Shown: piece by piece, positions 1 to 8,744 of the stretch | Position numbering within the stretch: position 1 is the first letter of the stretch | Layout of the letters: every line of letters starts with the position of its first letter | DNA from: Microcella alkaliphila | GTDB taxonomy: Bacteria > Actinomycetota > Actinomycetes > Actinomycetales > Microbacteriaceae | DNA: 64,000 bases | Direction: 5' to 3' | NCBI RefSeq assembly: GCF_004216855.1 | Contig: NZ_SGXT01000013.1 | Span: 186,001-250,000 of the forward strand | Translations under genes and position numbers: made by a program | Notes under the pieces: generated by a model | The model's database searches: none | What the model was told of the DNA's origin: nothing | Seen by the model: only the letters and a program-made list of their open reading frames with translations

Positions 1-911
1 ACCTCACGAAGCGCTACGGCGCCGTCGCTGCCGTCGATGACGTCTCCTTCACCGCCCACCCCGGCCGGGTCACGGGGTTCCTCGGCCCGAACGGCGCGGG
101 AAAGACCACAACGCTGCGCGTGCTGCTGGGGCTTGCGCGTGCCACATCCGGCACGGCCACGTTCGGCGGCACCGCCTACGCGGCGCTTGATGATCCCGCC
201 CGCCGGGTCGGAGCATCCCTGTCGTCGGATGTCTTTCATCCCGGGCGAAGCGGACGCGACCACCTGCGCGTCCTGCAGCTAGCCGCCGGCCTCGAACGCG
301 ACCGCATCGACGCGGTGCTGCAGCGCGTCGGCATGACCGATGCCGCCGACCGCCGGGTGGGCGGCTACTCCCTCGGCATGCGCCAGCGCCTCGGCCTCGC
401 CGCCGCCCTGCTCGGCGACCCGGGAACACTCGTGCTCGATGAGCCCATCAACGGCCTCGACCCTGCCGGCATCACGTGGATTCGCGTATTCCTGCGCGAG
501 CTCGCCGCAGAGGGGCGCACGATCCTGCTGTCGTCGCACGTGTTGAGCGAGGTGTCGCAGACGGTGGATGACGTTGTCGTGATCGCGCGCGGACGCATTG
601 TCATGGCGGGGGCACTCGCCGAGCTCTCGGCCGGTGCCGTCGCCCGCGTGCGTGTGGACGCTGCCGACCGCAGCGCCCTCGCCTCGGCGATCGCCGCCGC
701 CGGCGGCGTCGTCGAGACGCCCACCGCGGGCCCCCTGGTCGTCACCGGCCTCGACGCCGACGGTGTCGGCCGCGCGGCGTTGGCGGCCGCCATTCCCCTC
801 ACGCTGCTCACCCCGCTCTCCGACGACCTCGAATCGGTCTTCCTGCGCCTCACGTCGGAACACCCCGATCCGGATGCTCGACCCGCCTCAAGCGCGGAGG
901 TCGCGGCGTGA
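1..911 (+). CDS. ABC transporter ATP-binding subunit (5' end outside window)
   Basis: The frame is open from base 3, so the start lies upstream of the window. The translation shows a Walker A loop GPNGAGKTT (bases 84-110), a signature region YSLGMRQRL in place of LSGGQ as is usual in BcrA/DrrA-type exporters, Walker B TLVLDEPINGLDP, and the switch histidine in LLSSHVLSEV. The protein should hydrolyse ATP on the cytoplasmic face to drive the permease encoded next, whose GTG start overlaps this stop by 4 bases. The family exports drugs, peptide antibiotics or lipids; the substrate cannot be told here. Confidence 0.93.
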   Translation, partial: LTKRYGAVAAVDDVSFTAHPGRVTGFLGPNGAGKTTTLRVLLGLARATSGTATFGGTAYAALDDPARRVGASLSSDVFHPGRSGRDHLRVLQLAAGLERDRIDAVLQRVGMTDAADRRVGGYSLGMRQRLGLAAALLGDPGTLVLDEPINGLDPAGITWIRVFLRELAAEGRTILLSSHVLSEVSQTVDDVVVIARGRIVMAGALAELSAGAVARVRVDAADRSALASAIAAAGGVVETPTAGPLVVTGLDADGVGRAALAAAIPLTLLTPLSDDLESVFLRLTSEHPDPDARPASSAEVAA

Positions 912-1732
912 GCGCCCTCACGCGCGCCGTCGCCGCGGAACTGGTTCGCGTCTTCTCGCTGCGCACCTGGTGGGTGCTCGCCGTGGTGCTCGTGCTCTAC
1001 GTCGGGGTCACCGCGGGCGGATTCGCCTTCTTCGTGACCGCCGAGACGGAGGGCGGCCCCGGTCCGCTTCCCGCCGAGGTGGCCACGCAGCTGGTCTACA
1101 GCTCGACCACGAGCGTCGCCCTCGTCATTCCGCTGCTGTTCGGGGCGCTCGCCGCGACGAGCGAGTACCGCTGGCGCACTCTCACCCCCACGTTCCTGGC
1201 CCAGCCGCGTCGCCCGGTCGTTCTGGTCGGGCGCCTTGTCGTGGCACTGCTCGTCGGCGCACTCTACGGCGTGATTGGCGCGCTCACGTCGGTTGCCGCA
1301 GGTGCCGCCGTGCTTGCGGCAAACGGCGTCGACACCCTGCTCGGCGATCCTGACGTGCTCGGCTTGCTCGCTCGCACCGTGCTCGCCTGCGCACTGTGGT
1401 CGCTTCTCGGCCTCGGTTTGGGGGCTCTCTTGACCAGCCAGATCGCGGCCATCGTCATTGTGCTGGTCTTCACGCAGTTCGTGGAGCCGATCCTGCGCAT
1501 CGTTGCCGGCGCCTGGGAGTGGTCGGCAGAGCTCGCCCGCTACCTCCCGGGTGCGGCCACCGACTCGCTCGTCGGGGCCGGCATTATCGCCTCCATCGGC
1601 CAACTTGATCCCACCGTGCCGGGCGTGATCGAGCCGCTCACCCGACTCGAGGGGGGCCTTGTGCTGACCGCCCTGAGCGTGCTGCTCGTCGCTGTCGCGG
1701 CCGTGACCACCCTCCGACGCGACGTTGAGTAG
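908..1732 (+). CDS. ABC transporter permease, ABC-2 type
   Basis: A 274-residue integral membrane protein with about six hydrophobic segments: one near residues 18-40, a second after a periplasmic stretch, and four more towards the C-terminus. The GTG start overlaps the stop of the ATPase gene (GTGA), so the two are translationally coupled and form one exporter. Residues of the type SEYRWRTLTPTFLAQPRR after the second segment match the cytoplasmic coupling region of ABC-2 permeases beside BcrA-like ATPases. The substrate is unknown. No dedicated regulator is visible, although it could lie upstream of the window. Confidence 0.88.
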   Translation: MSALTRAVAAELVRVFSLRTWWVLAVVLVLYVGVTAGGFAFFVTAETEGGPGPLPAEVATQLVYSSTTSVALVIPLLFGALAATSEYRWRTLTPTFLAQPRRPVVLVGRLVVALLVGALYGVIGALTSVAAGAAVLAANGVDTLLGDPDVLGLLARTVLACALWSLLGLGLGALLTSQIAAIVIVLVFTQFVEPILRIVAGAWEWSAELARYLPGAATDSLVGAGIIASIGQLDPTVPGVIEPLTRLEGGLVLTALSVLLVAVAAVTTLRRDVE

Positions 1733-1795: not shown

Positions 1796-2872
1796 ATGTC
1801 CACGATCACGAACGGCGCCCTCGGCCAGACGCTGACCGCGCCCGTCATTCCTGAGCGTCGCGAGCGGCTCACCCCGGTCGAGATCGACCGCCCCAAGCGC
1901 GTGCTGTTGGCCGCGCCGCGCGGCTACTGTGCCGGCGTCGACCGCGCCGTCATCGCCGTTGAGAAAGCGCTCGAGCAGTACGGTGCGCCGGTCTACGTGC
2001 GCAAGCAGATCGTGCACAACGTGCACGTGGTCAGCGAACTCGAGAAGGCCGGCGCGATCTTCGTCGACGAGGTCGACGAGGTGCCCGAGGGCTCGCACAT
2101 CGTATTTTCGGCCCACGGTGTGAGCCCCGCTGTCGTGAAGGGCGCGGCAGACCGCGAGCTGCAGGCCATCGACGCCACCTGCCCGCTCGTGACAAAAGTG
2201 CACCGAGAGGCCGTGCGGTTCTCGAAGCAGGACTACTGGATCCTCCTGATCGGTCACGAGGGCCACGAAGAGGTCGAAGGCACGATGGGGCACGCCCCCG
2301 AGCGCACCATTCTCGTGAACGACCCCGACGAGGCCGACCGCATCGAGGTGCCCGAGACCGAGAACCTCATCTGGTTGTCGCAGACCACGCTCTCGGTCGA
2401 CGAGACGATGGAGACCGTGCGTCGCCTGCGCGAACGGTTCCCGCACCTGAAGGACCCGCCCAGCGACGACATCTGCTACGCGACGCAGAACCGTCAGGTG
2501 GCGATCAAGAAGGTCGCTCCTGACGCCGATCTCGTCATCATTGTCGGCTCGTCCAACAGCTCGAACAGCGTGCGTCTCGTCGAGGTCGCGCTGGAATACG
2601 GGGCGAAGGCGGCGTATCGCATCGACTACGCCAGCGAGATTCGACAGGAGTGGTTCGAGGGCGTCGCGAGCGTCGGGGTGAGCTCGGGTGCGAGCGTTCC
2701 CGAGGTGCTTGTCGAGCAGGTGCTCGCCGACCTGCGTGATGCAGGGTTCGAGAACGTCGAGATTGTGAAGACCGCAGAGGAAGATCTGATGTTCTCGCTG
2801 CCGAAGGAACTCCGAACGAACGCCACGGGAGAGCGCGACGAGCGCGCCCTCGGCGGTCGCACCCGGAGCTGA
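1796..2872 (+). CDS. ispH: 4-hydroxy-3-methylbut-2-enyl diphosphate reductase
   Basis: Last enzyme of the MEP isoprenoid pathway: it reduces HMBPP to IPP and DMAPP with a 4Fe-4S cluster. The three cluster cysteines are visible in APRGYCAGV (Cys45), [11 protein letters not shown] and [11 protein letters not shown], and the substrate-binding histidines appear in [16 protein letters not shown] and LIGHEGHEE. The length of 358 residues is typical of actinobacterial IspH with a short N-terminal extension. The gene is monocistronic, with its own promoter. Isoprenoid supply would also feed carotenoid or retinal synthesis, relevant to the heliorhodopsin at 33418, but those genes are not in the window. 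Confidence 0.97.
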
Positions 2873-2891: not shown

Positions 2892-4133
2892 GTGCCGTCC
2901 AATCAGGCGCCCACAGCCCCGCCGAGCGATTCGTTCGCGTCTCTGCCAGCGCCGCGCGGGGTGACGGCTGCGGGTCTCGTGCGCGGCCTGAGCGCCGCCA
3001 TGCGCTGGATCGGTCCCGTATCGGTACTGCTGGTGCTTGCCGTGATCGGCGAGACGGCTGTCGTGCTCGGGCACGGCCCCGCGTCCGTGCCGCTCGTGCT
3101 GACACTCCTTCCCGTCCTCGTGACGTCGCTGGCTCTCGCCGCCCGCCCGAGCGTCGTCACGATGGTGACGCACCTCGGCGTGGGGCTCACCATCGGCACG
3201 GCGTATGCAGCGCTGGCCACCTCGTACGCCGCACCCCTCGGGGATCGCTCGGGCTTCCTGGTCGAGGGCGCTGCCGTCGCGCTGATCTTTGTCGGGGCGC
3301 TCGGCACGCGGGGCGTGAGCGGCATCGGCTGGATCCTGGCGGGGCTCGGCGTCGGGACGATCGCGATTGCCCTGGGCGCCGTCATCGTGGGCGAGGAGCC
3401 TCACTTTTCGCCCGATCGCGTCATTGATGCCCTCATCATGGTCTTCGCCTTTGCCGTGGTCGACATCGGCTGGCGGCGCAGCGGCGGGCGCCTCCCCGCC
3501 TTCCGCGACATTGCCCGCGAGACGCGTCGCGCCGACGAGCGTCGCCGCCGCGAACGGTCGGCTGCCGCTGTCGTGCACGACACCGTCCTGTCCGATCTCG
3601 CCGCCATTGCTCACGGAGACGGCGCTCTCGATGAGAGGATGCGCGACCGCATCCGGGCGGACCTCACGCGCTTGGAGGGTGCGAGCGCGACCGACACCGG
3701 CACGGTCTCGATCCTGCCCCGCGAGGGCACATTCGGCCGCGCCCTGCTGGACCTGGTCGAGGATTACCGCTGGCGTGGCGGCCGCATCGACCTGGCCGGC
3801 ACGGAGCTGTTGACCGATGACGCCCTCCCACCCGTCGTCGCGGAGGCGTTGCACGCCGCCGTCGCGGCGACGCTCGACAACGTGCGTCGCCACGCGTCGG
3901 CCCATCACGTCGAGCTGACGCTCGGAGGAGACGACGACCGCCTCACGGTGCTCGTCGTGGATGACGGACTGGGCTTCGACGTCGACGCGGTGGCGGTCGA
4001 CCGTTTGGGTCTCCGCGAGTCGATCATCGGCCGAATGGAGCGCGCCGGGGGGTCCGCCAGGATCTGGTCGTCGGAAGCGGGCACCACCGTGCTGCTCTCG
4101 GCTCCCCGCGCCGGGGCGGAGGCCGAGCGATGA
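2892..4133 (+). CDS. sensor histidine kinase, DesK/NarL-like (cassette copy 1)
   Basis: A 413-residue membrane kinase with about six hydrophobic segments in residues 30-195. A basic linker (ADERRRRERSAAA) leads into the H-box VVHDTVLSDL, whose histidine is the likely phosphorylation site. The C-terminal ATPase domain has an N-box LDNVRRHASA, a G1 box VVDDGLGFD and a final GTTVLL. This H-box with a following basic or aspartate-rich helix is typical of HisKA_3 kinases that phosphorylate NarL/LuxR-type regulators. The GTG start at 2892 is 19 bases after the ispH stop. The stop overlaps the next gene by 4 bases (ATGA). No response regulator follows. The gene has a paralogue at 5322. Confidence 0.85.
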   Translation: MPSNQAPTAPPSDSFASLPAPRGVTAAGLVRGLSAAMRWIGPVSVLLVLAVIGETAVVLGHGPASVPLVLTLLPVLVTSLALAARPSVVTMVTHLGVGLTIGTAYAALATSYAAPLGDRSGFLVEGAAVALIFVGALGTRGVSGIGWILAGLGVGTIAIALGAVIVGEEPHFSPDRVIDALIMVFAFAVVDIGWRRSGGRLPAFRDIARETRRADERRRRERSAAAVVHDTVLSDLAAIAHGDGALDERMRDRIRADLTRLEGASATDTGTVSILPREGTFGRALLDLVEDYRWRGGRIDLAGTELLTDDALPPVVAEALHAAVAATLDNVRRHASAHHVELTLGGDDDRLTVLVVDDGLGFDVDAVAVDRLGLRESIIGRMERAGGSARIWSSEAGTTVLLSAPRAGAEAER

Positions 4134-5275
4134 CCGTGTGGTGGCGGCGCTCGGCCAACGAGGTCGACACGCTCAGCTGGTTGACCGCGTCGCTCGTGAC
4201 CGCGTGGGTTCCCGTCTTGATCGTGGCACTCGGCGCCGGTGGGGTGCTGCTCGGTGAGCAGGGCGCCGATGCGCCCGGTTTTCAGTGGGCTGCCGTCGTG
4301 CTGGCCGCACTGGCAACCGGTGCCATCCATTTCGCCGCCCGTCCCACCCGTCGACGTTTCGGAACGGCTACGGCAATGGTCGTCGCCGTGTTGGCGAGCT
4401 CGGCGGTTCTCGTCAGCGGGTGGGGCATCGCGCGAGGGGGTCACGGAGCGACCGCAGAGCTCGTCCCCGAGTTGTGGTGGGCTCCAGTCGCGGTTGCGCT
4501 CGTCGTCATGTCGCTCAGCCCGTTCGTTCCCGGTCGCGTCTTCCTGCCGGCGGGAGCGATGGTTGCCGGTGCCAGCGTGCTGGGTGCTGCATTCGCGACA
4601 GAGCCGCTCGCCGCCGTCTCTCCCGGAGCGGAGGTGGTGATCGCCGCGTCCTCACCGCTGTTCGCCCTCATCGGCGGTACCTTCCTCACGCGCGCGCTCA
4701 TCGATGAAGTGCAGGGCTGGCGCTCGGGCATCGTCGACACCATCGCGGTGCCGCCCGCGCGCGAGAAGGCGGTGTCGATCGTGGACCGCACCACGCGCGG
4801 GGTGCTCAGCGCGGACGCGATGCCCTTCCTGCGGGCCATCGCCGATGGTGCGCCGGTGGACGCCGCCACGCGCGCGCGGGCGGCCGAGCTGGCGGCCGAG
4901 CTGCGCACCGCGCTCATCGACCGTGAGGGCAGCGGCTGGCTCGGCGCCGTCGTTGCCACCCGGGCGGTGCACGTCACCGACCCGCACCGCCTTGCTGATC
5001 GCGTCTCCCTCGACCAGCGCGCGGCGATCCTCGCGCTCATCGACGGGGTGTTCTCCGACCAGACCGCCGGCGTGTATGCCGCGCGGCTGGAACTGGCTCC
5101 GGGTGGGGAGGGGAACGTCGCTGTGGCGCTCACGCTCGATCTTGAGCTTCCGGAGGGGCGCCGCACCGCGGTGCTGGCCCCGTACTACCTGACGGCGAAG
5201 TCGGTCGTGCGGGACATCTCGTGGACCAACGGACGCTCGCTCGTCGTCCGCTTCGGAGTCGACGGCGAGCGGTAG
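4130..5275 (+). CDS. membrane protein, probable degenerate kinase partner (cassette copy 1)
   Basis: A 381-residue protein of unrecognised family. About six transmembrane segments fill residues 18-195, the same layout as its kinase neighbour, followed by a cytoplasmic domain of about 185 residues. That domain has a helix resembling a kinase dimerisation helix (AAELAAELRTALID), a stretch DRVSLDQRAAILALIDGVF and a conserved end GRRTAVLAPYYLT..VVRDISW, but no H-box histidine and no N or G box. It is translationally coupled to the kinase. I infer a pseudokinase that may pair with the kinase; this is untested. A homologue at 6505 shares the C-terminal motif. Confidence 0.7.
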   Translation: MTVWWRRSANEVDTLSWLTASLVTAWVPVLIVALGAGGVLLGEQGADAPGFQWAAVVLAALATGAIHFAARPTRRRFGTATAMVVAVLASSAVLVSGWGIARGGHGATAELVPELWWAPVAVALVVMSLSPFVPGRVFLPAGAMVAGASVLGAAFATEPLAAVSPGAEVVIAASSPLFALIGGTFLTRALIDEVQGWRSGIVDTIAVPPAREKAVSIVDRTTRGVLSADAMPFLRAIADGAPVDAATRARAAELAAELRTALIDREGSGWLGAVVATRAVHVTDPHRLADRVSLDQRAAILALIDGVFSDQTAGVYAARLELAPGGEGNVAVALTLDLELPEGRRTAVLAPYYLTAKSVVRDISWTNGRSLVVRFGVDGER

Positions 5276-5297
5276 CCCTGCGGGCGCACGCGAGCGC

Positions 5298-5303
5298 TAG
5301 CCT
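5298..5303 (+). promoter_or_regulatory. -10 box of the second kinase cassette
   Basis: TAGCCT lies 18 bases before the ATG at 5322, with a good ribosome binding site GGGGAGGA between. The second cassette can therefore be transcribed independently of the first. Confidence 0.45.
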
Positions 5304-5321
5304 GAGCGCGAGGGGAGGACC

Positions 5322-6512
5322 ATGCCGACGGTCGCACTGCCGCGAGATGTCGCCGCCGCAGTCGTCGTGTCGGGGCTCTCGACGGCCATGCGCGCCGTCG
5401 CGATCGGGGGTACGGCGCTGACCGTCGTCATGTCGGTCGACGTGGTTCTCTCCGCCGGGCTCGATCCTTTGCGCGCGCCCATCGTCGCGGCGCCGGCAGT
5501 CGCGGTGCTCCTTCTCGCCGCCCTGTTGCTCATGCTGCCGTCGCGCGCGACCGCGACGCTCTACCTGGCCGCCGGAGGGGTTGCCGCCGCGGCGTCCGTC
5601 GTCGCGGTGGTGGCGCTCGCCGAGCAGGGCGACGATCCCTTCATCCTGAATCGTGTTGCCACCGCGTTGCCGCTCGTCGGTGCCCTCGGCGGCAGCGCCC
5701 GTAGCGGGGTGCGCTGGACACTCGCGGCACTCGCCGTGTCCTACTCCGCTCTCGCGGTCGGCTGGTGGGCCGTCGGCACTCCCGGTCCGTTCGGCTACGG
5801 CCCGCTCATCGTGGGCGTCGTGTCACTCACCGGCTTCGGGTTGCTCGCTGCTGTGCGCTATCGCGCGAAGCAGCGCGTTCCCGAGTTCTTGGCGGTGCAG
5901 CGAGCGGTCTTGATCGATGAACGCGAGCGTGAATTGCAGCGACGCGCGGCGGCGGCCGTGCACGACACCGTCCTCGCCGATCTCGCGGTCATCGCGATGA
6001 CGGTCGGAACCGTCGATGAGCGGATGCGCGACCACATTCTGCGGGACCTCGACGCGATCGTGCGCCCGACCGCCCGCCGGGTGTCGTCGTCCACGGCCGT
6101 CACGGCAGCCCCCGCGCCGCTTGCCGACGCGCTGCTCGAGCTCGCCGATCACTACCGCTGGACCGGGGTGAGTGTGCAACTGAGCGGCGCCGAGGAACTC
6201 ACGGCGGAGGTGCCTGCGCCCGTCGTCGACGCGCTCGTCGGTGCCACCCGCGCGGCGCTCGACAACGTTGCGGCACACGCCGGTACCGGCCAGGCCGAAC
6301 TCGTCGTCGGTCAGCGTGACGACGCGATCGTACTTCTCGTCGTCGACGCGGGTGTCGGTTTCGACCCCGACGCCGTCGGCGCCGATCGACTCGGCCTGCG
6401 CGAATCGATTGACGGACGCATCCGCACGGTCGGTGGGTCGGTGCGCATCTGGTCCGGTGACGAGGGCACCACCGTCATGATGCGGGTTCCGCTCGGAGCG
6501 CGCGATGAGTGA
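5322..6512 (+). CDS. sensor histidine kinase, DesK/NarL-like (cassette copy 2)
   Basis: A 396-residue paralogue of the kinase at 2892. About six hydrophobic segments span residues 10-190. The linker is followed by the H-box AAVHDTVLADL, then an ATPase domain with N-box LDNVAAHAG, G1 box VVDAGVGFD, the shared block RLGLRESIDGRI and a terminal GTTVMM. The G1 box reads DAG where copy 1 has DDG; both keep the aspartate and the glycines needed for ATP. A ribosome binding site GGGGAGGA precedes the ATG. The stop overlaps the next gene by 8 bases. Copy 1 and copy 2 clearly arose by duplication, but the membrane sensors have diverged strongly, suggesting different signals. Confidence 0.85.
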   Translation: MPTVALPRDVAAAVVVSGLSTAMRAVAIGGTALTVVMSVDVVLSAGLDPLRAPIVAAPAVAVLLLAALLLMLPSRATATLYLAAGGVAAAASVVAVVALAEQGDDPFILNRVATALPLVGALGGSARSGVRWTLAALAVSYSALAVGWWAVGTPGPFGYGPLIVGVVSLTGFGLLAAVRYRAKQRVPEFLAVQRAVLIDERERELQRRAAAAVHDTVLADLAVIAMTVGTVDERMRDHILRDLDAIVRPTARRVSSSTAVTAAPAPLADALLELADHYRWTGVSVQLSGAEELTAEVPAPVVDALVGATRAALDNVAAHAGTGQAELVVGQRDDAIVLLVVDAGVGFDPDAVGADRLGLRESIDGRIRTVGGSVRIWSGDEGTTVMMRVPLGARDE

Positions 6513-7701
6513 CCGTTCGCACGTATCCCCCTGGTCGACCGACCCGATCAGCTGGGTGACGACCGCCGCGATTCCGGTGACGGCAACGGTCCTCGCCGTC
6601 GTCTACAGCGTGATCGAGGTGATCGCCGTTCCGCCGCGCGGCGGCACCCTGCAGTGGCTCGGCATTCTGCTGCTCGCCGCATCGGGTGCGATCGTGCATC
6701 TGCGCACGCGTCCGCCGCGCGGAGTGCTGGGCGCACCCGAGATCATGACCATTTTCGGCTTGCTGAGCGCAGCCACGCTGTGCTCGGCTCTCGACCATCA
6801 GGGCGTCGCCTTTTCGATCACGTTCTGGTGGGCACCCTTCGGGGTGTCTCTCCTGCTCGTTGCCATGGCCCCCTACGTGCGCGCGTCGAGCATCGCCGCG
6901 CTCGCTGTCGCGCTGGTTGGAGTTGTCTCGCTCATCGCCGTCGTGCTCATCGTTCCCCACGATCCGAGCTGGCCGCCGGTCACGACCGCGCTCATCGTGG
7001 TCACCCCGGTCGTGGCCGGGGGTACCGTGAGCGCGGTGCTCTCCGGCAGCATCGTGCGCCGGCTCATGCGCTGGAGTGAGCGACCCCTCCCCGGGGCCCC
7101 CGTGATCGGACCGGCGGGCATCGATGACCGGGCGCTGGTGCGGGCCGTCGACGACGAGATCTCGGAGCAGTTGGCGGCTGCCGTCACGTTTCTGCGCGGC
7201 GTTGCCCGACGGGGCGAGGTCACCGACAGGGATGCGCGCCAGGCCCGTTCGTTGTCGCTCGAATTGCGGGCGCGGCTCATCGCCGACGCGTCGGCCACCT
7301 GGCTCGAGCGCGTCGTGCGCGGTCACCCCGTCGACCTCGACGACCCCGAGCGTCTCGCCGACCGGTTGAGCGTCTCGCAGCGCACCGCCCTCCGCGCGAT
7401 GATCGATGCGCTGCTCGCGCATCCCGAATCGGGGTTCGTGTCGGCGAGTATTGCCCTGCGGGGCTCCGCATCGGGTGATGTCGCCGTCGCGATGCGCATC
7501 AACACGACCCTGCCCGAGGGGCGGCGCATCAGCTTCCTCGCGCCCTACTACGTCTCGTTGTCGTCTGCCGTGCGCGACATCCAGTGGCGCGACGGCGCGA
7601 CTCTCAACGTGGAGTTCGAGGCGCCCGCCGAAACGACAGCGGGGCGTGCGCCGCTGGTGCAACGCACGCCCCGGAGCGAGACGGCAGGGGAGCGGGACTA
7701 G
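6505..7701 (+). CDS. membrane protein, probable degenerate kinase partner (cassette copy 2)
   Basis: A 398-residue paralogue of the protein at 4130. About six transmembrane segments lie in residues 20-195. The cytoplasmic part has a helix ARSLSLELRARLIADA, the block DRLSVSQRTALRAMIDALL and the conserved end GRRISFLAPYYVSLSSAVRDIQW. As in copy 1, no phosphoacceptor histidine or ATP-binding boxes can be found. A hydrophilic tail of about 25 residues follows. The start ATG overlaps the kinase stop by 8 bases, and the stop overlaps the end of fba on the other strand by 4 bases. The function is unknown; pairing with the upstream kinase is inference from overlap and shared topology. Confidence 0.7.
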   Translation: MSDRSHVSPWSTDPISWVTTAAIPVTATVLAVVYSVIEVIAVPPRGGTLQWLGILLLAASGAIVHLRTRPPRGVLGAPEIMTIFGLLSAATLCSALDHQGVAFSITFWWAPFGVSLLLVAMAPYVRASSIAALAVALVGVVSLIAVVLIVPHDPSWPPVTTALIVVTPVVAGGTVSAVLSGSIVRRLMRWSERPLPGAPVIGPAGIDDRALVRAVDDEISEQLAAAVTFLRGVARRGEVTDRDARQARSLSLELRARLIADASATWLERVVRGHPVDLDDPERLADRLSVSQRTALRAMIDALLAHPESGFVSASIALRGSASGDVAVAMRINTTLPEGRRISFLAPYYVSLSSAVRDIQWRDGATLNVEFEAPAETTAGRAPLVQRTPRSETAGERD

Positions 7702-8744
7702 CGGCCCGAGTGCCCCGCCGAACCGAGCTGCTGCGTGGCCTCGACGACCCGCTTCGCCATCGCTGTTTCGGCGGCCTTGCCCCACGCGCGCGGGTCGTAG
7801 ATTTTCTTGTTGCCGACCTCGCCGTCAACCTTCAAGAAGCCGTCGTAGTTCTTCAGCACGCTGTCGGCGACCGAGCGGCTGTAGGCGTACTGCGTGTCGG
7901 TGTCGATGTTCATCTTGATGACACCGTTGGCGACCGCGGTGGCGATCTCCTCGTCGGTCGAGCCCGAGCCTCCGTGGAAGACGAGGTCGAGCGGCAGGGC
8001 GGCCGTGCCGTTCGCGGAGTTCGGGAAGTACCGTGCGGCGATGCCGTCCTGAATCTCCTTGAGCAGTTCGGGGCGCAACTTCACGTTGCCCGGCTTGTAG
8101 ACGCCGTGCACGTTGCCGAAGGTGAGGGCGGCCATGTAGCGGCCCTGCTCGCCGAGGCCCAGCGCCTCGACGGCCTGCTCGACGTCGCCGAGCGTCGTGT
8201 AGAGGGCGTCGTTCGAGCCCTCGTGCTGCACGCCGTCCTCCTCGCCGCCCACGACGCCGATCTCGACCTCGAGGATGGCGTTGATGTTCTTCATGCGGGG
8301 CAGCAGCTCGCGAGCGATCTCAATATTCTCCGCCAGCGGCACCGCCGAGCCATCCCACATGTGCGACTGGAATATCGGGTTGCGGCCCGCCTTCACCTCG
8401 GCCTCGCTAGCCTCAATGAGCGGCATGACGAAGCCGTCGAGCGCGTCCTTAGGGCAGTGGTCGGTGTGCAGCGCGACCGTGATGGGGTAGTTCTTGGCCA
8501 CCTCAGTGGCGAAGGCGGCGAATGCGAGAGCGCCCGAGGCGCGGGCCTTCACGCTCTGGCCGGCGAAGTAGTCGGCGCCGCCGGTCGTGACCTGCAGGAT
8601 GCCGTCGGAGCCGGCCTCGGTGAGGCCCTGCAGAACGGCGTTGATCGTCGACGACGACGACACGTTGATGGCGGGGTAGGCGAACCCGCCCTTCTTGGCC
8701 TTGTCGAGCATCTCGGCGTACTGCTCGGGGGTGGCGATGGGCAT
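7698..8744 (-). CDS. fba: class II fructose-bisphosphate aldolase
   Basis: Cleaves fructose-1,6-bisphosphate to DHAP and glyceraldehyde-3-phosphate in glycolysis and makes it in gluconeogenesis. At 348 residues it belongs to the longer class IIA type. Zinc and active-site motifs are visible: VALHTDHCPKDALDGF, the signature MWDGSAVPLAEN, ILEVEIGVVGGEEDGV, the histidine in TFGNVHGVYKPG, and the phosphate-binding loop LVFHGGSGS followed by VIKMNIDTDTQ. It is transcribed divergently from glpX with 145 bases between the starts, which places opposing glycolytic and gluconeogenic enzymes side by side. Confidence 0.97.
   Translation of the reverse strand: MPIATPEQYAEMLDKAKKGGFAYPAINVSSSSTINAVLQGLTEAGSDGILQVTTGGADYFAGQSVKARASGALAFAAFATEVAKNYPITVALHTDHCPKDALDGFVMPLIEASEAEVKAGRNPIFQSHMWDGSAVPLAENIEIARELLPRMKNINAILEVEIGVVGGEEDGVQHEGSNDALYTTLGDVEQAVEALGLGEQGRYMAALTFGNVHGVYKPGNVKLRPELLKEIQDGIAARYFPNSANGTAALPLDLVFHGGSGSTDEEIATAVANGVIKMNIDTDTQYAYSRSVADSVLKNYDGFLKVDGEVGNKKIYDPRAWGKAAETAMAKRVVEATQQLGSAGHSGR

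Follow-up and report, generated by a model that had tools for sequence, protein, structure and literature searches.

In group A Streptococcus, the FasBCA system contains two adjacent six-helix sensor-kinase-like proteins with DHp and CA domains that form a heterodimer in two-hybrid assays; FasC is the proposed pseudokinase, and the three-gene unit has one response regulator (PMC12675982). In Corynebacterium glutamicum, the pseudokinase ChrS pairs with HrrS in a cross-talk of paralogous systems (PMC9491836). Here we analyzed a stretch of 64,000 nucleotides of the Microcella alkaliphila genome (contig NZ_SGXT01000013.1, positions 186,001 to 250,000; the window), in which the interval between ispH and fba holds two diverged copies of a unit that consists of a kinase gene (K) followed by a partner gene (P). 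The two K-P units are arranged as K1-P1, then K2-P2, and the interval contains no response regulator gene. Profile comparison and structural models support P as a full-length, catalytically dead relative of K that has the same build. We consider it probable that K and P make up one mixed sensor, a K:P heteromer, with its output directed from a distance to a LuxR-type response regulator, RR_B.

Sequence identity is 42% between K1 and K2 (285 residues) and 31% between P1 and P2 (376 residues), which bears out the duplicated two-gene unit that an earlier note on this DNA had described. The open reading frames, the gene order and the 4- and 8-base overlaps given in that note were all as stated on re-reading, and the His of the H-box, which it had called intact, is present in both kinases. 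The N and D.G.GF boxes are likewise intact in K1 and K2. P1 and P2 have a motif in common that consists of LAPYY, six further residues and VRDI.W. We kept the GTG codon at 2892 as the start of K1 because the N-terminal LP motif conserved in the family precedes the alternative GTG at 2961 that the gene caller favored.

The pairing of K and P is constant in the related loci analyzed. A search of 150 Microbacteriaceae genomes with P1 gave matches at 70 places in 54 genomes from 36 of the 85 genera. Sixty regions around these matches were fetched, 7 of the 70 places being left out, and together with the window they provided 63 P genes, of which 58 were gene-called and five were recovered by six-frame search; this search also supplied K and the response regulator in L066 and L094 and K in L093, and in L069 and L073 it supplied P alone. 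A search with a single protein misses divergent P copies; those at C5 and C6 in the window's own genome were found with a P profile and the one at C8 by reading the locus. K lies directly upstream of P in 63/63 cases. As these loci had been chosen by their P, we added 17 further loci chosen by their K, and in each of them K is immediately followed by P. The total is 80/80 adjacent pairs, P was never found without K, and the two genes overlap in 51 of the 58 gene-called pairs. Eight named loci, including those of Galbitalea, Glaciihabitans, Schumannella and a Salinibacterium bin, are also K-P. The P protein of one fetched locus (L049, genome G029) is identical to that of Galbitalea sp. SE-J8 (L139), in agreement with Microbacteriaceae as the family.

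The K and P trees agree in their main branches. The 27 pairs of the ispH-fba branch are monophyletic in each tree (SH-aLRT 98 and 100), as are the pairs of the tdk branch (95 and 95). Path lengths in the two trees correlate with an r of 0.91 over 58 pairs, a value that is inflated by the common descent of the species, against a maximum of 0.21 in 2000 permutations. Beyond the family, P-like frames follow K in three genomes that belong to a different family of the order (E 1e-9 to 4e-12 for partial matches), where the end of a response regulator frame lies upstream of K, and in one genome from another family of the class (E 3e-10). The phylum and order searches scored only 6–9 candidates per genome, so that absence there is weak evidence.

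BLASTP showed no likeness between K and P, and their link is visible only by profile comparison. When a profile of 58 P sequences was compared with a profile of 60 K sequences (hhalign), they matched over 198 columns with a probability of 91.7 and an E value of 8e-7. The alignment places the P hairpin "G..V[TD]...R" on "G.LD...R" of the K DHp domain and sets the phosphoacceptor His of K opposite a Ser of P1. Among the 58 P sequences, the motifs D.G.G[FV] and GT[ST]V are each found in none and an N-box-like string in one, and there is no His among the conserved P columns. Instead, the gene-called copies (n = 58, 343–452 residues) have a signature of their own, in which A and R are invariant and D, W-L, D, A, Q-R, P and F are present in at least 90%. 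The Pro at residue 232 of P0002, five residues past the site of the lost His, is the majority residue in the 58 P sequences and reaches at least 90% in the 10-sequence alignment. HisKA-type kinases, as distinct from those of the HisKA_3 type, carry a Pro five residues after the phosphoacceptor His. P1 and P2 gave nothing significant against Pfam and NCBIfam, and a search of all 58 P sequences against Pfam-A at E 0.1 matched 19 models, none of them by more than two members; no model covers the P family. We took a PspM match (E 1.8) and the Pfam models matched by one or two of the 58 sequences (best E 1.4e-4) as noise. The P of L083, at 452 residues, is longer and is also without a Pfam match.

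The AlphaFold model of P2, computed from 10 sequences (pLDDT 70.7, pTM 0.50), begins with six long membrane helices, which are followed by a two-helix hairpin and a strand-helix-strand-strand-helix-strand-strand region. The K2 model (pLDDT 75.6, pTM 0.46) shows the same succession of elements, except that the helix preceding the first strand is longer. At the position of the ATP lid, K2 has a 15-residue loop whereas P2 has 3 residues. VIA-align placed P2 on the CA domain of DesK (3ehh; Z 9.3, root mean square deviation (rmsd) 2.5 Å, 97 residues), the CA domain of DosS (3zxo; Z 9.4, rmsd 2.9 Å, 105 residues) and the DHp-CA region of AgrC (6e52; Z 9.4, rmsd 5.2 Å, 160 residues); models that lack a clear match commonly reach a best Z of 7–8. 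In its membrane part, P2 also matches ImcA (Z 10.0) and an adenylyl cyclase (Z 9.2), which for helix bundles may reflect a mere common arrangement. The earlier note had described the partner as a protein without phosphoacceptor or ATP boxes that has the topology and helices of a kinase; P indeed has no His, N-box, D.G.G or lid loop, and the profile match and models put it in the build of K. It had also proposed structure prediction and a search for the partner family beside kinases in related genomes. The prediction gave a kinase-type order for the cytoplasmic domain, not an unrelated fold, and in all 80 pairs the partner has its kinase neighbor.

The kinases themselves are of the DesK/NarL type. 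In an alignment of 60 kinases that includes K1 and K2, H and N are each conserved in 59/60 and D, G, G and F each in 60/60. K1 and K2 fall below the Pfam gathering cut-offs, with HATPase_c scores of 23.7 (K1) and 19.2 (K2) against 26.4 and a HisKA_3 score of 14.2 (K2) against 24; the C5 and C8 kinases of the same genome exceed the HATPase_c cut-off. Compared with solved structures, the K-family profile matched VraS (4gt8, E 6e-9), DosS (3zxo, E 2e-8) and DesK (7ssj, E 4e-4). Weak NCBIfam matches of K1 and K2 were to MacS, MctS and similar kinases. Among named families, MacS (NF047322) is the closest to K, with 61.6 bits (E 7e-17) for K2 and 47.3 bits for K1, both far below its curated cut-off of 300.

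In 36/80 pairs P is followed directly by the gene of a LuxR-type response regulator, and in 4/80 (L100, L174, L182 and L185) a response regulator lies directly upstream of K. K, P and regulator together make the usual three-gene unit. The absence of a response regulator, which the earlier note had made part of its description, is thus true of the window and of some branches but not of these 36 pairs. None of the 27 pairs of the ispH-fba branch has a regulator alongside, and the note's proposal that the regulator is encoded elsewhere is supported, with RR_B as one good candidate.

Five members of the K family were found in the window's own genome at E < 1e-30, namely K1, K2 and the kinases at C6 (L123), C5 (L124) and C8 (L125). 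The C6 cassette consists of a kinase, K_B, a frame-broken P, RR_B (G000:C6:55209-55856) and tdk. Its P is split in two frames (L123:7859-9000; G000:C6, about 55.86–57.0 kb), and this may be a cassette without a working pseudokinase or an assembly error. The order at C5 is K-P-RR, RR being the response regulator, and that at C8 is RR-K-P-like (P-like E 7e-5). At E < 1e-20 the genome has three regulators of the RR_B family, which stand singly beside the C5, C6 and C8 kinases. This leaves K1-P1 and K2-P2 without one of their own in this family, and RR_B is the best candidate.

We surveyed the 150 genomes for RR_B at E ≤ 1e-86 and for K at E ≤ 1e-75. RR_B is present in 65/150 genomes, with K within 3 kb upstream in 46 and without it in 19. 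It was found in 24 of the 25 genomes that have an ispH-fba pair and, among the 125 other genomes, in 41 (Fisher 1.8e-9, kinship uncorrected). The cut-off for RR_B misses weaker copies, as 8 of the 17 K-chosen loci have a sub-cut-off regulator right after P, which is followed by tdk in seven and cut by the contig end in the eighth (L178); when these are included the others come to at least 49/125 (Fisher 5e-8, again kinship uncorrected). None of the 17 K-chosen kinases lies beside ispH or fba, and the count of 25 ispH-fba genomes stands (kinases < E 1e-75). RR_B has no adjoining K in 10 of the 24 genomes of the ispH-fba branch, two of which (G074 and G137) belong to the window's genus. At these 10 loci the order is radical-SAM gene, RR_B and tdk, and a six-frame search of them found neither K nor P. 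Among all lone RR_B loci, 18 of 19 were fetched; G124, with RR_B and a P piece at a contig start, was left out. In the tdk branch, K-P occupy the slot between the radical-SAM gene and tdk, and in many loci the radical-SAM gene lies directly upstream of K. The own-genome and lone copies of RR_B contain receiver and GerE domains. Judged from these gene orders, the most likely target of the two pairs in the window is the distant RR_B.

Two variants were seen at such loci. In L067 (4202-5788) the radical-SAM protein upstream of K contains an insertion that resembles an intein (Intein_splicing E 1.4e-5, under the cut-off). At the RR_B-tdk site of G060 (L159:616-6232), a single open frame is matched by the K profile (E 5e-49) as well as by the response regulator profile (E 1e-88), which suggests a fused kinase-regulator variant.

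Of the two further genomes sampled from the genus, one, G137, also has the tandem unit. In both trees the K1 and K2 units each group with one of the two units of G137; G074 has only one pair, which is of the K2 type. From this grouping, the duplication probably predates these species, and G074 would since have lost one unit.

The common origin of K and P, the loss of catalysis in P, the gene pairing, the co-descent and the association with a regulator are supported by sequences and models, and they suggest how the system may work. K and P derive from one ancestral six-helix kinase, as the profile comparison and models indicate. Being encoded by overlapping genes, they are made together, and their DHp helices most likely pair into a K:P heterodimer. 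As P has neither ATP site nor phosphoacceptor, it would serve as a sensor half and conformational switch that sets the balance of kinase and phosphatase activity in K. For the same reason a K:P dimer could phosphorylate in cis only. P would thus license K or, if K phosphorylates only in trans, hold it off as an inhibitor. The gene order points to a LuxR-type regulator of the RR_B family as the protein that K would phosphorylate. In the other main branch that regulator directly follows P. In the branch of the window, K-P sits in the ispH-fba interval and RR_B stays by tdk, so that the partners would work from two loci, and the tandem unit would provide two sensors for probably one output, in addition to a third kinase, K_B, beside RR_B. 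More tentatively, K and P may represent an undescribed actinobacterial class of obligate kinase/pseudokinase heterodimer sensors that is older than the family and in which K needs its own P. In one branch the sensors would have parted from their regulator, and in this genus they would have been duplicated, so that two heterodimers and a kinase with a broken P converge on one LuxR-type regulator; mixed K1:P2 or K2:P1 dimers would be possible.

Several observations count against this interpretation. The P2 Z scores of 9.3–9.4 are only somewhat over the usual 7–8, a Foldseek search with P2 gave no match below E 1e-3, the best kinases being at about 2e-2, and the models are single-chain predictions from 10 sequences with middling scores. 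P could also pair with itself and not with K, as a homodimer that acts as a separate receptor or scaffold of the operon or as a titrator of the regulator. In the models, its complete membrane part and hairpin would suffice for self-dimerization, but the unbroken adjacency of K and P, their mirrored trees and the frequent gene overlap make this unlikely. A role in phosphotransfer, in which a protein with a DHp-type fold and degenerate CA domain relays phosphate as Spo0B and ChpT do, would agree with fold matches to Spo0B (1f51; Z 9.1, rmsd 8.8 Å, 150 residues) and ChpT (4fmt; Z 8.5, 2.8 Å, 101 residues). We rejected it because P has no His at the site where K has one, nor in any conserved column, and regard it as highly improbable. 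That P is a decaying, functionless kinase remnant would agree with the frame-broken copy beside K_B, yet it is hardly credible for a family of 58 full-sized gene-called copies with a conserved signature, retained in both branches and in other families.

The choice of RR_B as target is also open to objection. K_B is kept beside RR_B in the window's genome, so RR_B is not free there. A further 13/80 pairs outside the ispH-fba branch have no adjoining regulator, and the missing regulator is therefore not special to that branch; L071 among them is at a contig end, and in L083, L179, L180 and L186, which lie in the tdk locus, P is directly next to tdk with no regulator between. The occurrence of a lone RR_B is not clearly tied to that of an ispH-fba pair (10/19 lone against 14/46 paired, p 0.16); with the 8 weaker copies, which were added afterwards, the comparison becomes 10/24 against 9/49 (p 0.047), at best a weak tie. 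Nine genomes have a lone RR_B without an ispH-fba pair, among them G124, where a contig end accounts for it, and G113 and G147, whose contigs are short, and G009, which is 86% complete, has the pair and no RR_B at the threshold. The residue six positions after the phosphoacceptor His is Asp in 26/27 kinases of the ispH-fba branch and mostly His in others (19/32), and given this change the branch may have shifted in its choice of regulator. The window pairs might then feed a C5-type, a C8-type or an unrelated regulator. The genome has nine LuxR-type helix-turn-helix matches, eight of them over the cut-off, and 6/24 C8-type regulators have no listed K alongside. Against this, the other 18/24 do have one, and the C5-type regulator has its own K upstream at a distance of 1,257–1,360 bases in 25/25 genomes of the ispH-fba branch, which is the size of a P gene (P itself was read in this gap only in the own genome). 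RR_B, in contrast, stands alone in 10 of the 24 genomes of the branch, and among the own-genome kinases only K_B has the HDTVL.DL box of K1 and K2, the C5 and C8 kinases being without it. We consider a different regulator conceivable but not likely, and retain RR_B as the target of the K:P sensor.

The genes of the interval are listed in Table 1. Window positions 120-1732, 5' of ispH, encode the ATPase of an ATP-binding cassette transporter (PF00005) and an overlapping membrane protein, and L062, which is of the same genus, has a similar pair ahead of ispH, unlike L041. Gene calling placed a gene for a DUF6264 protein (PF19779; E 2.5e-43 in L139, 4072-4752) or another member of its cluster between ispH and K in 17 of the 24 fetched loci of the ispH-fba branch; the window, L041 and L062 do not have it.

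Table 1. Genes from ispH to fba, in positions of the window.
Feature	Position	Strand	Remarks
ispH (LytB)	1796..2872	+	Pfam LYTB E 2e-93; synteny; upstream neighbor of the window's K-P branch
K1, membrane histidine kinase, DesK/NarL (HisKA_3-like) type	2892..4133	+	phosphoacceptor His codon 3576-3578
P1, pseudokinase partner of K1	4130..5275	+	4-base overlap with K1
K2, second kinase	5322..6512	+	phosphoacceptor His codon 5961-5963; AlphaFold model m1fa31550da47
P2, pseudokinase partner of K2	6505..7701	+	8-base overlap with K2; AlphaFold model mb34cd57e3440
fba (class II fructose-bisphosphate aldolase)	7698..8744	-	Pfam F_bP_aldolase E 9e-80; synteny; convergent downstream neighbor

P is a real and widespread partner family that is apparently undescribed: no description of the K-P pair was found in the open-access literature, a scope outside which most subscription papers and preprints lie, and the earlier note had known of none either. 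Bacterial kinase/pseudokinase heterodimers are known from a few single cases, whereas P is kept in dozens of genera. Its principle has precedents; its scale, fixed pairing and parted branch have none in the literature searched. The set of P and K proteins from 36 of the 85 sampled genera constitutes natural data on the control of a histidine kinase by a pseudokinase, the parted branch offers a way to ask how a sensor keeps its regulator once the gene cluster breaks, and a membrane protein family outside every Pfam model gains a testable function.

GacS-RetS, DivL-CckA, LiaFSR, ChrS and FasBC were compared with P by description, not by sequence. RetS and GacS are not known to be an adjacent operon pair, the DivL and CckA genes are not known to be paired and represent another kinase class than K, and LiaF is not known to be a pseudokinase. 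In DivL-CckA of alphaproteobacteria, a genuine kinase is under the control of a pseudo-histidine kinase, as we propose for P, and in LiaFSR a histidine kinase and response regulator are tuned by a third membrane protein. We rejected a LiaF-type role for P, as no LiaF-type model was among the Pfam-A matches of the 58 P sequences (E 0.1). In GacS-RetS of Pseudomonas, a second kinase-like protein modulates a kinase via the DHp domain (PDB 7n0e, title); RetS differs from P in that it is described as a hybrid kinase that blocks GacS autophosphorylation. ChrS would share with K-P the nature of an actinobacterial kinase/pseudokinase heterodimer, but it became a pseudokinase by laboratory evolution, whereas P is an old, fixed family with a signature of its own (PMC9491836). 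FasBCA is nearest to K-P in its working. FasC keeps its phosphoacceptor His (H246), which P does not have, FasA lies in its operon while the window K-P units have no regulator alongside, and FasA binds a ComE-like site while RR_B has a GerE/LuxR-type domain (PMC12675982). K and P probably form a kinase/pseudokinase heteromer that resembles FasBC with FasA in its working but belongs to a different, apparently undescribed family.

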